A DNA stretch of 64,000 bases from an uncultured Opitutia bacterium (lineage in GTDB: Bacteria; Verrucomicrobiota; Verrucomicrobiia; Opitutales; Opitutaceae): contig CAITWF010000086.1 in NCBI GenBank assembly GCA_903896015.1, positions 1-64,000 on the forward strand, read 5' to 3'. Shown piece after piece: positions 7,052 through 63,824 of this stretch. How positions within the stretch are numbered: position 1 is the first letter of the stretch; every line of letters begins with the position of its first letter. The position numbers and the translations under genes are program-made. The notes beneath the pieces were generated by a model. It worked only from the letters and a program-made list of their open reading frames with translations, was not told the origin of the DNA and did not search any database.

Positions 7052-8137
7052 TTACTCCGGCACCAGCTCCGGCACGATGGGCCGGCCGGTTTCGCGGCGG
7101 ATCGATTCGAGGTTTTCGCGGATGAGCGCGCCCATCGATTCGCAGCGCAAATAGTCCTTGCGGCCATAGTGGGCGGCGAGCTCTTCGCGGAGGTGGTGAA
7201 TCTTTTCGATGGGCGCGATGCGATCGGCGGTCATGTCGTGCAGCAGCAGGCCGAGCCGCTCGGATGCGAGGTGCGCGCGCTGGAGGATGATCGCCTGCTC
7301 CTCGCGCTGGTATTGCTTGGCGGTTTCGAGGCGCAGGTGGCGGATGCAGAAATTCACGAGCGGCGTGTTCTCCTTGAAGAACTGCGGGAGATAAAAATTT
7401 TTTCGGCCGTTGTAACTCTGCTGATCGAAATCCATGGCGCGCAGTCGCACCTGCCAGTCGTCGAAGTCGGGCGTGAGGAGCACGACGAAATTGTAGGAAC
7501 GCATGTCACCGAGGAGGCGGATGAAGCAGCGCTCGTTGAACTTGACGACTTCCTTCGCGATGCGGATCGGGCGCAGATCCTTTTGCGAAAGCCAGCGGCT
7601 GATGAAGATGTCGCCGGGGAGGCCGACGATGTGCTCCTCGACGAGCGTGGAATTGTGCGTGATGAAGTTGAGGCGGTTCGGCGAGAGGAGGTGCTCGAGT
7701 TCGAGGCCGTAGACGCGCGAGGCGTCGGCCTTCTTGATGTAGAAATAGTCCTGATTGTCGTTGTAGGCGTTGACGATTCGGATGCGGAACGGCGTCGAGT
7801 TGCCGAACGTGCAGAAGTCGATGCGGTCGACGTAAAGGTGGCTGAAGACGGACGTGTCGCCGTCGGTGCGGAGGAGCGCGTAGATGCGCTTCAGGTCCTC
7901 GTTGAGCGAGCGCATCTCGTGGGGATCGTAGATGACGGTGTCCCAAAGCGTGGGCTTGCCGTGCTCGTCGTTGAGCGGGATCGCTTCCTGAAAGCCGAGC
8001 ATGCGCTCGTAGGTCACGGGCAGCTCGCGATCGCGGCGGTAGCGGCGCAAGTAGACGCGCAGATCGTCGCGGATCGGGAAGCTCGGTTTTTTGTCCGTGC
8101 GCGGAAATTCCTGAGCGGGCTGCGCGTTCGCGTCCAT
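7052..8137 (-). CDS. Uncharacterised 361-362 aa protein, possible kinase-like fold
   Basis: Cytoplasmic protein starting at ATG 8137 (a TTG at 8143 is the alternative). No signal or membrane segment. Conserved-looking islands are DYFYIKKADASRVYGLELEH, LVEEHIVGLPGDIFI and FIRLLGDMRSYNFVVLL followed by LRAMDFDQQS. A lysine-bearing strand, an internal Glu-His pair and a late DFDQ acidic motif are arranged as in phosphotransferase/protein-kinase-like folds. That is an inference, not a recognised family match. The C-terminal third is helical. It is just downstream of the YhcG-like gene on the same strand (about 10 bases apart). Confidence 0.65.
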   Translation of the reverse strand: MDANAQPAQEFPRTDKKPSFPIRDDLRVYLRRYRRDRELPVTYERMLGFQEAIPLNDEHGKPTLWDTVIYDPHEMRSLNEDLKRIYALLRTDGDTSVFSHLYVDRIDFCTFGNSTPFRIRIVNAYNDNQDYFYIKKADASRVYGLELEHLLSPNRLNFITHNSTLVEEHIVGLPGDIFISRWLSQKDLRPIRIAKEVVKFNERCFIRLLGDMRSYNFVVLLTPDFDDWQVRLRAMDFDQQSYNGRKNFYLPQFFKENTPLVNFCIRHLRLETAKQYQREEQAIILQRAHLASERLGLLLHDMTADRIAPIEKIHHLREELAAHYGRKDYLRCESMGALIRENLESIRRETGRPIVPELVPE

Positions 8138-59408: not shown

Positions 59409-59440
59409 AGCGCGTTGGCCCCAACGCGCTTTTTTATTTT
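59409..59440 (+). terminator. Rho-independent terminator
   Basis: Perfect 10-bp stem: AGCGCGTTGG (59409-59418), CC loop, CCAACGCGCT (59421-59430), then TTTTTT-A-TTTT. It follows the proline-rich gene stop by seven bases and isolates it from the TIR gene starting at 59460. Confidence 0.88.
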
Positions 59441-59459
59441 CAATTTTTCGCCGCCGCCC

Positions 59460-61787
59460 ATGTCCGCCGTTTTTCTTAGCTACGCGTCGCAGGACGCCGC
59501 TGCCGCCCGCCGTATCTGCGATTCGCTGCGCGCCGCCGGACTCGAAGTCTGGTTCGATCAAAGCGAACTCGTCGGCGGCGATGCATGGGATCAAAAAATC
59601 CGCGGCCAGATCAAGGCGTGCGCGCTCTTCGTCCCGCTGATTTCGACGGAAACCCAGGCTCGCCGCGAAGGCTACTTTCGTCTCGAATGGAAGCTCGCCG
59701 CACAACGCACCCACACGATTGCCGACGGCACGCCGTTTCTCCTGCCCGTCGTGATCGACACCACGCGCGACGCTGACGCGCTCGTGCCGGAGGAGTTTCG
59801 CGCTGTGCAATGGACGCGCCTCATAGGTGGAGGAGCGAACGCTGCGTTCGTCGCGCGCGTGAAAAATCTGCTGACCGGAGAAATTGCGCAGGTTGGCTCG
59901 GCGGTAGGGGCATCGTTTAACGAGGCCCGAGGACGCGGATCTGCCACGCACCTTCCGAACAAGCGCTCGCCGTTCGCACTGACGGCGGGCGCCTTTGCTA
60001 TCGTCGTTGCAATCGGCACGGCTTGGTTCGTGTCGAAAAAATCCGAGCGCAGCGCAGTGCCAGTCCAACCCGCCGCGAGCATTCCTTCACCGGCGCCTCA
60101 GCCCGCCGCACCCGCCGTTTCGGATAAATCCATCGCCGTGCTCCCGTTCGCCAACATGAGCGATGAAAAAGACAGCGCGTTTTTTTCCGATGGTATTCAG
60201 GAGGACGTGCTCACCAATCTCGGCTCGGTCCGGGACCTGCACGTCGTCTCGCGCACCTCCGTCGAGCAATTCCGGAAGACCACCAAGCCCATCCGCCAAA
60301 TCGGCGAGGAACTGCGCGTCGCCTACGTGCTGGAGGGTAGTGTGCGCCGCGCAGGTGGCAAGGTGCGCGTCACTGGGCAGCTCATCCACGCGGCCACCGA
60401 CGAACATGTGTGGGCCAAATCCTACGACCGCGATTTGACCGACATTTTCGCGGTGCAGACCGAACTGGCGCATGACATCGCGCTCGCGCTGAGCGCTGCG
60501 CTTTCGCCGCAGGAAAAAATGAGTCTCGCCCGGCGGCCGACGGAAAACGTCGCCGCCTACGAACTCTATCTGAAAGCGCGTGAATGGCGGGAAAAGAAAA
60601 GCGGCTCCGGGCGAATTGTCTCCGCGATTTCGCTTTTGCAGCAAGCCGTCGAACTCGATCCCAAGTTCGCGGTCGCGTGGGCCGAGCTCGGCGACTGCCA
60701 CGCTCACCTCGTCTTCGACGAATGGGATCGGACTGAGCAGCGGTTGGCCTCGGCGCGCGCCGCGATCGAGACGGCGGTGCGGCTCGCTCCGGACGACCCC
60801 GGCGTCATCGCTAAGCTCGGTGTCTATTACCTCCATGCCGACCGGGACTACGCGCGCGCCACCGAGCAATATGTGCGGCTCGCCCAGATTCGTCCGAACG
60901 ATCCCGAGGTGTTTCGCGCTCTTGGTAGCATTCAGGTGCGCCAAGGCCGATTGGCGGACTGCGTCGCCAATCTTCGCCGTGCGTTGGAACTCGATCCCGG
61001 AAATTTTGCCGAAACCCGAAACCTCGTTTCGCAGCTCGAAGCCGGCCACCACTACGATGAAGCCGAGGCGCTCGCCCGACGGCTCGTGACGGTTTTTCCC
61101 GATGAGCAAGACGGTTATTTTTTTCTGGCATCGACTGTCTTCAAGGCGCGCGGTTCGACTGCGGAAATGGATGCGCTGGGTCGGCACACATTCGACCCCA
61201 ATCGTCGCAGTGCGGTCGATTATTTGAGAATAACTCTCGCGCGATTTCGGGGGGATATGGCTGAGGCCATCCGCCTTGATCGCCAGCAACCCGTGTGGGA
61301 CGGGGGTCTGTCGCCGTGGGCGCAGGACATGGCTGCTGCGATCACTCTGGTAAACGCTGGCGAACTCACCGCGGCGCGCGCCCGGCTAACGACCGCGATG
61401 GCGGTGATGAACGAGAAAAAGGAAAAGGAGCCATTAAACTCGTGGCTTTTCGCCTGGCTGGGTCAGGCGCACGCGCTGTTGGGTGAAAAAGCCGAGGCGC
61501 TGGCATGCGCGCAACGCTCGCTCGATATCCTGCCGGAATCGCGCGATGCGATCTACGGCGTCGAAAACGCCGTGATTGCCGCCTCGACCTATGCTTGGGT
61601 CGGCGAAAAGGAGCGCGCTCTTGCCGAGTTTGCGCGGCTACTAAAAACGCCCCACGGCACCAATAGTTTCACCGCTGCGCGCGGCTTGAACGATAGCGAC
61701 ACGCAAGTCTCGTTCAAACCCCTTTGGGACGACCCGCGCTTTCAGGCGCTGGTCGCCGACCCGAAAAACAACGCGCCGCTATTTTGA
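59460..61787 (+). CDS. TIR - membrane - TolB-like - TPR protein
   Basis: 775 residues from ATG 59460; an earlier in-frame start at 59415 lies in the upstream terminator and is rejected. TIR 1-135 (AVFLSYASQDAAAARRICD, LEVWFDQSELVGGDAW, Glu76 in GYFRLEWKLA), transmembrane helix about 172-191, TolB/FlgO-like domain about 220-345 (KSIAVLPFANMSDEKDSAFF, GEELRVAYVLEGSVRRAGG), TPRs 370-770 ending FQALVADPKNN. Same architecture as the protein at 31300, but the TPR halves differ strongly. The TIR would face the cytoplasm and the TPRs the periplasm. Confidence 0.88.
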   Translation: MSAVFLSYASQDAAAARRICDSLRAAGLEVWFDQSELVGGDAWDQKIRGQIKACALFVPLISTETQARREGYFRLEWKLAAQRTHTIADGTPFLLPVVIDTTRDADALVPEEFRAVQWTRLIGGGANAAFVARVKNLLTGEIAQVGSAVGASFNEARGRGSATHLPNKRSPFALTAGAFAIVVAIGTAWFVSKKSERSAVPVQPAASIPSPAPQPAAPAVSDKSIAVLPFANMSDEKDSAFFSDGIQEDVLTNLGSVRDLHVVSRTSVEQFRKTTKPIRQIGEELRVAYVLEGSVRRAGGKVRVTGQLIHAATDEHVWAKSYDRDLTDIFAVQTELAHDIALALSAALSPQEKMSLARRPTENVAAYELYLKAREWREKKSGSGRIVSAISLLQQAVELDPKFAVAWAELGDCHAHLVFDEWDRTEQRLASARAAIETAVRLAPDDPGVIAKLGVYYLHADRDYARATEQYVRLAQIRPNDPEVFRALGSIQVRQGRLADCVANLRRALELDPGNFAETRNLVSQLEAGHHYDEAEALARRLVTVFPDEQDGYFFLASTVFKARGSTAEMDALGRHTFDPNRRSAVDYLRITLARFRGDMAEAIRLDRQQPVWDGGLSPWAQDMAAAITLVNAGELTAARARLTTAMAVMNEKKEKEPLNSWLFAWLGQAHALLGEKAEALACAQRSLDILPESRDAIYGVENAVIAASTYAWVGEKERALAEFARLLKTPHGTNSFTAARGLNDSDTQVSFKPLWDDPRFQALVADPKNNAPLF

Positions 61788-61802: not shown

Positions 61803-62483
61803 TTACTTTGCCAGCGCCGCATCGCGGATCGCGTGAATCACGGCCGGGTCCTGCACGATGCCGAGCACCCCGTTCACGACGAACTGGATGCCGATGCAGA
61901 GGATGATAAACCCCATCACCTTCGAGAGCGCGTTCATGCCGTTGACGCCGATTACACCCACGATTTGTTCCGACAGGCGCAGCACAAAATAGGTAATCGC
62001 GGCGACGACGAGGATGCCGACGATGATCGCGACGTAATCCACCCAGCCGGTCGAGAGCGACGTGAAGCCGATCGTCACCGCGATCGATCCGGGGCCGCTC
62101 ATCATGGGCATCGCGAGCGGGGAGAACGACACATCGCGTTTTGCGCGGGCGGCGGCGCGCGCGGGGTCCTCTGATTCGAGGTCGCGTGGCGGCGCGAGCA
62201 GCATCCCGGAGCCGATGCCCGACACCAGCAGGCCGCCCGCGATGCGCAGGCCCGGGATCGAGAGGCCGAAGAATTTCATGATGAACGTCCCGCCGAGCAG
62301 AAAGCTCACGAGAATCGCCACCGTGTAAACACACGCCATGCGGAGCTGCTGCATCCGCCGCTCGTGCGAATCGCCCTCGGTGATCGCGAGAAACGTAGGC
62401 GCCGACGCGAGCGGGTTGATCAACGGCAGCAGCGCGATGACCGTGCCGAGGATGAGTTGCCAAAAATGACTGACGCTGAGCAT
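61803..62483 (-). CDS. MarC-family integral membrane protein
   Basis: 226 residues with about six membrane helices. MarC signatures: LLPLINPLASAPTFLAITEG at the N-terminus, LRIAGGLLVSGIGSGML, FSPLAMPMMSGPGSIAVTIG, and FIILCIGIQFVVNGV near the end. The family's function is unsettled despite its historical link to multiple antibiotic resistance. Convergent with the TIR gene, which ends 15 bases away. Confidence 0.92.
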   Translation of the reverse strand: MLSVSHFWQLILGTVIALLPLINPLASAPTFLAITEGDSHERRMQQLRMACVYTVAILVSFLLGGTFIMKFFGLSIPGLRIAGGLLVSGIGSGMLLAPPRDLESEDPARAAARAKRDVSFSPLAMPMMSGPGSIAVTIGFTSLSTGWVDYVAIIVGILVVAAITYFVLRLSEQIVGVIGVNGMNALSKVMGFIILCIGIQFVVNGVLGIVQDPAVIHAIRDAALAK

Positions 62484-62552: not shown

Positions 62553-62638
62553 TTTGGAGTGCGGTGACGTGTCACCACCCTCGACGTCGGGACGTGTCCC
62601 GACGCAAACAAGGCGGCGACGCATCGCCGCACTCCAAA
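62553..62638. repeat. 86-bp element of three hairpins bounded by inverted repeats
   Basis: Outer inverted repeats TTTGGAGTGCGG (62553-62564) and CCGCACTCCAAA (62627-62638). Inside lie three palindromes in a row: GGTGAC-GT-GTCACC (about 62563-62576), GTCGGGAC-GT-GTCCCGAC (about 62586-62603) and GCGGCGA-CGCA-TCGCCGC (about 62613-62630). It fills the gap between MarC and the dihydrouridine synthase and contains no reading frame. It resembles a miniature mobile or REP-cluster element. Confidence 0.7.
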
Positions 62639-62651
62639 ATTTACTTTGCGC

Positions 62652-63755
62652 TCACCACGTGTCGACCGGACCTTTCGGCACGGGGATCGCCGGGTGACCG
62701 ATATCGCCTTCCTCCGCCATGAACGACGCGACCATCGGCGCGGGCGCATATTTTTCGAGGAGCACGCCGTTCGCGTCGCAAAATTGTGCGCGCCAGGCGA
62801 AATACTCCGCGAGCGCCGCCTCGAAATCGGCGCGCGACTTGATTGTAAGGATGCGGCGCTTGAACGGCTTCGCCGGTCCGAAACGCTTCGCATACCACGG
62901 TGCCACGCGGCGGAAAAAGACCGCACCGCGCTCCTCGCCGTAAAACTCAACGTAGCGCTCGAAGTGCCGCCGCAGCACGCGGATTCGCTCCTCGAAATCC
63001 GGCTCCGGCTGCAACACGCCCGTGCGCAACAACGCTTCCGTGCGCCGGAAAATCCACGGATCGTAGAATGCGCCGCGACCAATGCTCACGCCCGCGCAAC
63101 CCGTCTCGTCGAGCATGTGCTTCGCGGCTTCGGGTGTGGTTACGTCGCCGTTGCCGATGACGGGGATCGTTTTCACCGCCTGCACCACCGCGCGGATGCC
63201 GGGGAGATTGACCCGGCCGGAAAATCCCTGCGCCCGCGTGCGCCCGTGAACGAAAATCGCCGCGATGCCAACCTCCTCGAGCACGCGCGCGAGGTCGGGC
63301 GCGGTGAGGTTGTCGTCGTCCCAGCCGAGTCGCATTTTCGCGGTCACAGGAATTTTCACGGCAGCGATCATGCCGCGGACAAGGGCGGCCGTCTTTTCGA
63401 GTTCGGTCATCATCGCGGAGCCGCCGCCGATCTTGACTACCTTCTTCACGGGGCAGCCCATGTTGATGTCGACGCCCTGCGCGCCGAGTGACTCGCAGAT
63501 GACCGCGGCGTCGCGCATCTCCTCCGGCACGCTGCCGAACAACTGAATCGCCATGGGCTGATCGCCGGGAGCGGTGGCGCAGAGTTTCAACGCGACCGGA
63601 TTTTTTTCGATGAGCGAGCGGGCGTTGACGAGATCGGTCGTGACCCAACCGAGTCCGCCGAGTTCGCGCAGCGTGAGCCGCATGGGCAGGTTGGTGTAGC
63701 CCGCGAGCGGGGAGAGGCAAAGATTCGACGATAGCTCGTGCAGGCCAAGGCGCAT
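62652..63755 (-). CDS. dusB: tRNA-dihydrouridine synthase
   Basis: 367 residues from ATG 63755 (MRLGLHELSSNLCLSPLAGY). FMN barrel motifs: LSPLAGYTNLPMRLTLRELG, QLFGSVPEEM, catalytic Cys in VDINMGCPVKKVVK, GRTRAQGFSGRVN, and IPVIGNGDVTTPEAAK. The C-terminal helical domain of the family follows (RHFERYVEFYGEERGA). Reduces uridine to dihydrouridine in tRNA. The DusB subgroup is the best guess. Seventy bases downstream of the PLP enzyme on the same strand. Confidence 0.9.
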   Translation of the reverse strand: MRLGLHELSSNLCLSPLAGYTNLPMRLTLRELGGLGWVTTDLVNARSLIEKNPVALKLCATAPGDQPMAIQLFGSVPEEMRDAAVICESLGAQGVDINMGCPVKKVVKIGGGSAMMTELEKTAALVRGMIAAVKIPVTAKMRLGWDDDNLTAPDLARVLEEVGIAAIFVHGRTRAQGFSGRVNLPGIRAVVQAVKTIPVIGNGDVTTPEAAKHMLDETGCAGVSIGRGAFYDPWIFRRTEALLRTGVLQPEPDFEERIRVLRRHFERYVEFYGEERGAVFFRRVAPWYAKRFGPAKPFKRRILTIKSRADFEAALAEYFAWRAQFCDANGVLLEKYAPAPMVASFMAEEGDIGHPAIPVPKGPVDTW

Positions 63756-63824
63756 TACCGGCAAGGTAGTTCAGAAGCCAGAAAACCAGAAAGATAATTT
63801 CTTGGTTTCATGGATTCTGAATTT

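Follow-up and report, generated by a model that had tools for sequence, protein, structure and literature searches.

A REPIN-like hairpin element beside a dusB-like gene in an uncultured Opitutia bacterium, and the RAYT clade linked to its foot in relatives

The 86 bases at positions 62553-62638 of the window (the whole 64,000-nucleotide stretch of DNA analysed here, from an uncultured Opitutia bacterium) are very probably a non-autonomous, REPIN-like mobile repeat in which two inverted REP-like hairpins, each with the foot TTTGGAGT, a 7-bp stem and a 4-nt loop, enclose one extra hairpin. An initial annotation of the sequence had offered a miniature transposable element or a REP cluster as readings, and the evidence favours the two jointly, as a REPIN-like doublet that is the non-autonomous partner of a RAYT. 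We call it REPIN-like and not a canonical REP because the strict GT[AG]G definition does not fit it: the GTAG or GTGG tetranucleotide placed 5' beside the palindrome in the text of PMC3686654 and PMC6006769 is absent, the foot being TTTGGAGT in the window and YTTGGAGT at 96 units from RAYT loci.

Anatomy of the element and its occurrence in related genomes

The outer repeats that the annotation described are an exact 12-bp inverted pair, TTTGGAGTGCGG, enclosing three hairpins (Table 1), and an imperfect inverted repeat of the element extends to 27 nt at 81% complementarity. It had also described three perfect palindromes, two of them with the same GT centre; there are indeed three hairpins, and the first two share the core GACGTGTC around that centre, but the third is a 7-bp stem carrying an unpaired CGCA loop. 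The left unit ends in CCAC, one base off the consensus CCGC. The judgement that such symmetry lies far above chance was borne out by folding: the 101 nt from 62545 to 62645 fold as RNA to -55.4 kcal/mol against a shuffle mean of -33.5 (z -6.1), and the other strand folds as DNA with z -5.8, none of 200 shuffles equalling either value. At the gathering score, Rfam returned no family in the window.

The element lies within the 168 bp that separate a dusB-like from a marC-family gene, both on the minus strand, 13 nt after the dusB stop codon. Elsewhere in the window, positions 59415-61787 encode a protein of 790 aa whose N-terminal part is a TIR_2 domain and which also carries numerous TPR repeats; it may act in signalling or defence.

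Table 1. Parts of the element, its neighbouring genes and its copies in the same genome
Feature	Position	Strand	Details
Whole REPIN-like element	62553..62638	.	86 bp
Left terminal repeat	62553..62564	+	TTTGGAGTGCGG
Left REP-like unit	62553..62578	+	foot TTTGGAGT, GCGG, TGACGTGTCA, CCAC
Left-unit hairpin	62563-62576		GGTGACGTGTCACC
Inner hairpin	62585..62604	.	CGTCGGGACGTGTCCCGACG; core GACGTGTC common to left unit
Right-unit hairpin	62613-62630		GCGGCGACGCATCGCCGC
Right REP-like unit	62613..62638	-	foot TTTGGAGT, GCGG, CGATGCGTCG, CCGC (consensus architecture)
Right terminal repeat	62627..62638	-	TTTGGAGTGCGG
marC-family gene	61803..62483	-	PF01914; other side of element
dusB-like gene	62652..63764	-	TIGR00737, 329 bits (cut-off 293)
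Copy in the window	C86		86 bp
Second copy	C22:24681-24740		60 bp
Third copy	C103:14739-14797		59 bp
Decayed fourth copy	C82 near 7860-7920

The draft genome to which the window belongs (G000; 4.96 Mb in 123 contigs, 97.9% complete) holds five exact copies of the end TTTGGAGTGCGG, against two of the reversed word. That count is not significant alone, and what matters is the inverted pairing: all five sites, together with a sixth that has a single mismatch, form three inverted pairs. These are the three clear copies, each built of two close inverted units, and with the decayed fourth they make up the whole set, which is short of the high genomic copy number of REP sequences. The element is nonetheless not the lone occurrence with unconserved palindromes that the annotation had set against its own reading, since there are extra copies in the genome and the hairpin is conserved elsewhere with covariation. 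The inner hairpin gave only matches with E of about 0.9-5.9 when sought as a separately dispersed repeat in this genome. All three clear copies stand close behind the stop codon of a long ORF (13, 13 and 15 nt), the genes ahead of them being dusB, an M48 peptidase gene and, for the C103 copy, an ORF (L058:2114-3625, minus strand) with weak, below-cut-off matches to the SLATT effector domain. The annotation had suggested looking for target-site duplications, and there are none: no direct repeat of 2-10 bp abuts the ends of any of the three copies. Such duplications are not expected from REP elements.

Among 95 genomes of the genus, family and order, seven contain at least five exact feet: G000 (5), G003 (28), G012 (17), G051 (22), G053 (12), G068 (22) and G076 (7), with reversed-word counts of 2, 7, 1, 6, 0, 0 and 0, respectively. 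The reversed word also reaches five in G006, G035 and G043, and therefore a foot count of five proves nothing alone. Many of the feet in G003, G051, G053, G068 and G076 stand in inverted pairs of about 60-130 bp with an apex typical of the genome, such as TGATTTATCA in G053, TGCTTCAGCA in G068 and CGGCTTGACG in G076; the units inspected in G012 are mostly single or directly oriented. Two loci of G003 (L149 on C3 and L152 on C9) have identical flanking bases on both sides over the stretch inspected, as if they belonged to one larger duplicated block. Satellite-like TGCGGA repeats of G002, G050 and G052, which a gapped N{20,50} search for the foot also returned, were set aside; at L065, L066, L068, L069, L071 and L072 of these genomes the foot is surrounded by words resembling GGAATGCGG and GGATTGCGG, unlike the doublets.

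Among the genomes searched just one other belongs to the genus, G001; it has 49 bp between dusB and marC and no exact TTTGGAGTGCGG anywhere. The gap is about 119 bp longer in the window, so that some 33 bases besides the 86-bp element also differ. Nor does GGAGTGCGG occur between the two genes in any of the five relatives that keep them adjacent, namely G001, G004 (gap of 148 bp), G007 (372 bp), G008 (25 bp) and G010 (68 bp). G001 lacks about 570 bp at the C103 copy, and its sequence aligns with only one flank at the site of the C22 copy. Thus the relatives document the presence of the element in the lineage of the window and provide no clean empty site.

A hairpin unit found across phyla and its linked RAYTs

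The recurrent unit consists of the foot YTTGGAGT, a 7-bp stem, a 4-nt loop and a following TTT. It is about 26-29 nt long, within the 20-40 bp of a short REP palindrome, and its stem covaries. Scanning the genomes of named species for TTTGGAGTGCGG-N(4-30)-CCGCTTT gave at least 146 matches in at least 117 stretches, and in at least 98 of them the gap was exactly 10, a fixed 10-nt apex block. By our own arithmetic, with equal base frequencies, about two matches of gap 10 would arise by chance, and a few isolated records may therefore be accidental. Among the matches listed, units of gap 10 occupy at least 78 loci with labels of at least 14 phyla, and the labels include Planctomycetota (at least 21), Verrucomicrobiota (at least 15), Acidobacteriota (at least 14) and Lentisphaerota (at least 8); the cross-phylum loci come mostly from MAGs, and some labels look wrong.

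The 57 distinct 10-mers among the matches listed preserve pairing while changing sequence. Of the 57, 52 are Watson-Crick at each of the two outer pairs of the upper stem, where shuffles reached at most 33 and 40, and each of these pairs occurs as four pair types. At the third upper-stem pair 35 are Watson-Crick (at most 25 in shuffles), and at the pair after it, which falls within the loop, 44 are (at most 40). Four slid control pairs did not rise above the shuffles. The commonest loop is CTTG, in 36 of the 98 gap-10 units among the matches listed. At the 96 RAYT-locus units the bases before GGAGTGCGG are T in 71 and C in 23 at -3, T in 59 at -2 and T in 89 at -1, and the three positions after CCGC are T in 74, 70 and 79.

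The first RAYT genes noticed close to the foot were those of G051, G003, G053, G076 and two named MAGs, L252 (labelled WOR-3) and L259 (labelled Planctomycetota); G006 followed. The proteins of G006, G053, L252 and L259 are 58%, 48%, 51% and 57% identical to that of G051, against 25% for the RAYT on contig C60 of the window's own genome, and the HUH motif of the foot-linked proteins is NHYH (NHDH in L259). A profile, A2, was built from four of them, all four of which match NF047646 (REP-associated tyrosine transposase), and the profile matches a single PDB entry, 4er8 (TnpArep, E 1.6e-8). With the best eight first-look candidates per genome scored, A2 found at least 54 places in at least 43 of 387 genomes of the phylum, 52 of the 54 with NHYH or NHFH. 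As controls we took 28 RAYTs, being 30 RAYT loci of relatives less L121 and L131, which both have NHYH; NHYH occurs in none of the 28. The taxonomic spread of the two sets is unequal, the controls all coming from the order and the NHYH set from the phylum.

Of the 54 NHYH RAYTs, 41 have an exact GGAGTGCGG no more than 450 bp away, and of the 28 others none does. It is on both sides of 29, and there are 116 sites in 46,080 bp of flank as against zero in 24,298 bp for the controls; requiring the following CCGC arm as well leaves 32 of the 54. The reversed word was seen at 0 of 54 and 1 of 28. Thirteen NHYH RAYTs are without an exact GGAGTGCGG nearby (L330, L356, L357, L360, L363, L364, L369, L372, L374, L375, L377, L378 and L379), some of them with short flanks or near matches, and L114, with one GGAGTGCGG beside one piece of a broken gene, was left uncounted with the whole-gene flanks. 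The word GT[AG]GG[GC], tried as a marker of the other RAYTs, discriminates weakly (26 of 28 against 35 of 54, with 27 and 45 for the reversed word). A quick maximum-likelihood analysis of 83 rows, from which rows under 100 aa had been dropped (2 of the 54 NHYH places and 4 of the 28 controls), puts the 58 NHYH rows on one side of a branch with SH-aLRT 96. The two named MAG rows fall among them, a placement that would fit transfer between phyla or MAG misbinning.

The matching transposase that the annotation had proposed looking for is thus present beside the repeat in relatives, but was not found in the window's own genome: all 14 candidates there were scored and none was of A2 type at E<=1e-25. 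The G051 protein used as query met its best match in the C60 RAYT (26% identical, E 7e-4). That gene, rejected as the cognate enzyme, is of the GTAG type and about 25-26% identical to the G051 protein, and its flanks carry GTCAGCAAGACTGAC followed by CCTGC or CCTAC, which is a GTAG-type repeat read the other way. It is the only RAYT found in the genome (L063:1380-2010) and adjoins a prephenate-dehydratase-like gene; the direct GTAG-type copies around it (reverse complement GTAGG..GTCAGTCTTGCTGAC) form a second REP family there. Flanking of a cognate RAYT by the same unit in the same genome, which marks REPINs, is accordingly seen at the 41 of 54 loci of relatives and is not seen in G000. An NHYH RAYT was found in four of the seven foot-rich genomes (G003, G051, G053 and G076) and not in G000, G012 (67% complete) or G068, while G006 has the RAYT and GGAGTGCGG doublets and lacks TTTGGAGTGCGG. 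As no NHYH-clade RAYT was found in the own genome, the copies there appear to be orphans that have outlived their cognate enzyme; they are probably relics that no longer move and may have a role at the RNA level.

Explanations weighed

On the REPIN-like reading, the hairpins would fold when the element is single-stranded, a RAYT of the NHYH clade would bind foot and hairpin, and it would cut beside the hairpin and then move or copy the doublet. At the conserved CCGC/TTT junction a CT is formed where the hairpin ends on its 3' side, which makes it a candidate cut site. The studied TnpA-REP enzymes cleave at CT, chosen in the model of PMC8266576, as described there, by A3G4 of GTAG; GGAG and GTAG are one base apart, and GGAG would keep the AG. 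Given that Pseudomonas units read GT[AG]GGAG in the text of PMC3686654, either GGAG or TTTG may be the guide position. Once the cognate RAYT had been lost, the window's copies would sit passively or serve as RNA hairpins behind genes. The points against this reading are that a RAYT of its own was not found in the genome, that only three clear copies exist there, that the sites in relatives are not cleanly empty, that the foot is not GT[AG]G, that 13 of the 54 NHYH RAYTs are without the exact word nearby and that three of the seven foot-rich genomes (G000, G012 and G068) gave no NHYH RAYT.

A function in RNA, whereby a strong hairpin behind dusB and two other genes terminates, stabilises or processes the mRNA or limits transcription running on into marC, is rather unlikely as the explanation, though a former REPIN could have been put to such use later and the two readings are compatible. 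The short distance of the three own copies from a stop codon and the strength of RNA folding argue for it, as do two overlapping terminator-like sites on the dusB strand (0.4 expected in shuffles), in which the right-hand stem is followed by CTTGTTTG. Yet this T-run is short and broken, the element is missing from the dusB-marC gap of five relatives, and in other genomes the nearest stop codon stands at varied distances or was not found. A role in RNA also leaves the RAYT linkage unexplained, and an intrinsic terminator was rejected as the whole story on these grounds.

A classical MITE, mobilised in trans when a DDE transposase acts on its terminal inverted repeats, is very unlikely: small size and exact 12-bp repeats would suit it, but the copies have no target-site duplication, each end is itself a hairpin and occurs also singly or directly in G012, and the enzyme linked in relatives is an HUH tyrosine transposase. 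Extremely unlikely is an operator array, in which the palindromes would bind, as duplex, a dimeric regulator of dusB or marC. The annotation had listed a protein-binding array, which gained no support of its own; GACGTGTC is common to two palindromes, as such an array would have it, whereas from one copy or genome to another the stems and apices change with pairing preserved, a pattern more in keeping with a folded strand than with a fixed operator, and the window has 5 occurrences of SGACGYGTCS where 7.6 are expected.

Extra hairpins recur inside the REPIN-like doublets. We examined 50 distinct doublets whose two units both follow the fixed architecture, using a lower stem threshold and drawing on few independent genomes; the window's element, with its left unit one base off consensus, lies outside this count. 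Inner hairpins, 38 in total, occur in 22 of the 50. The central 6 nt of the inner hairpin equal the apex of a flanking unit in 17 of 38, against 63 of 1,754 (3.6%) in comparisons with the units of other genomes, and the two units of one doublet have the same apex in 28 of 50 (null 4.1%). Examples of reuse are L368, with AATTCATT on GACGG and CCGCGA stems, L373, L331 and L121. The other 21 inner hairpins do not share the apex, and 7 of 13 genome labels have no apex-sharing inner hairpin. G053 shares in 5 of 14; a second inner apex, GTTTTAAC, is common in that genome, and in 396 kb of it, with stems of at least 7, GATRAATC apices occur on GCGGYG stems only, that is, without reuse. Some inner hairpins may be decayed full units. 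The same 396 kb (L380-L399) contain other abundant hairpins, of the types GGGCTTCGCAAGCGAAGCCC (11), GGCGGGTCAGGAGACCCGCC (9) and GGAGGGCGGGTC.., probably further REP families. As a tentative proposal, these elements could reflect a RAYT/repeat pair, distributed among many phyla, that keeps the foot YTTGGAGT constant and has in the apex a variable address for each RAYT to read, inner hairpins with the same apex on unrelated stems being extra docking sites and the elements concentric multi-hairpin structures.

Known systems and significance

The REPINs and RAYTs of Proteobacteria, as presented in the text of PMC3686654 and PMC2817692 and the subject also of PMC3116915, are alike in having two inverted hairpin units that share a foot, in being dispersed and mostly intergenic, and in flanking a RAYT gene, and a Pseudomonas REP table shows the CTTG loop to be common there too. 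They differ in having GT[AG]G directly before or near the palindrome where we find YTTGGAGT; the separate NHYH RAYT clade and the extra inner hairpins of the elements described here are further differences. Subclass 2.8 of TnpA-Y1, which we compared by its description in PMC6006769 alone, has the HUH signature NHYH and a Y-motif of the form Y-x-H-x-N-P, as here; it is confined to Cyanobacteria in that sample and has GT[AG]G repeats. Measured against its traits as described there (NHYH, YIHYNP and GT[AG]G), our clade has NHYH, a Y-motif that is similar only, and no GT[AG]G. TIRtrons with their TIRYTs (PMC3733652) also combine RAYT-like genes with non-GTAG inverted repeats, some self-complementary and dispersed; their TIR motif is GGGGWSAS, and the main text of that paper contains neither TTTGGAG nor GAGTGCGG, a comparison that covers the main text and so leaves overlap possible. 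Opitutus terrae, a verrucomicrobium, is described in the same text as rich in GTAG repeats.

Literature searches, in which relevance was judged partly by title and which covered text other than figures and supplements, found no earlier description of a YTTGGAGT repeat; the exact repeat strings gave unrelated matches only, and 'REP-associated tyrosine transposase' together with GGAG gave none.

What is unusual is a foot other than GT[AG]G, together with inner hairpins that often reuse the flanking apex on differing stems. Automatic REP rules based on GT[AG]G, as described in PMC6006769, and the definition given in PMC3686654 would miss the YTTGGAGT class, although records labelled Planctomycetota, Verrucomicrobiota and Acidobacteriota, among others, contain it. 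Loop recognition has been shown for two group-3 enzymes by SELEX and cleavage, according to PMC8266576. The natural variation of the present elements, with the foot fixed, the apex changing and the apex set on new stems, provides ready-made substrates for asking what a RAYT reads, and apex recognition by RAYTs becomes testable.
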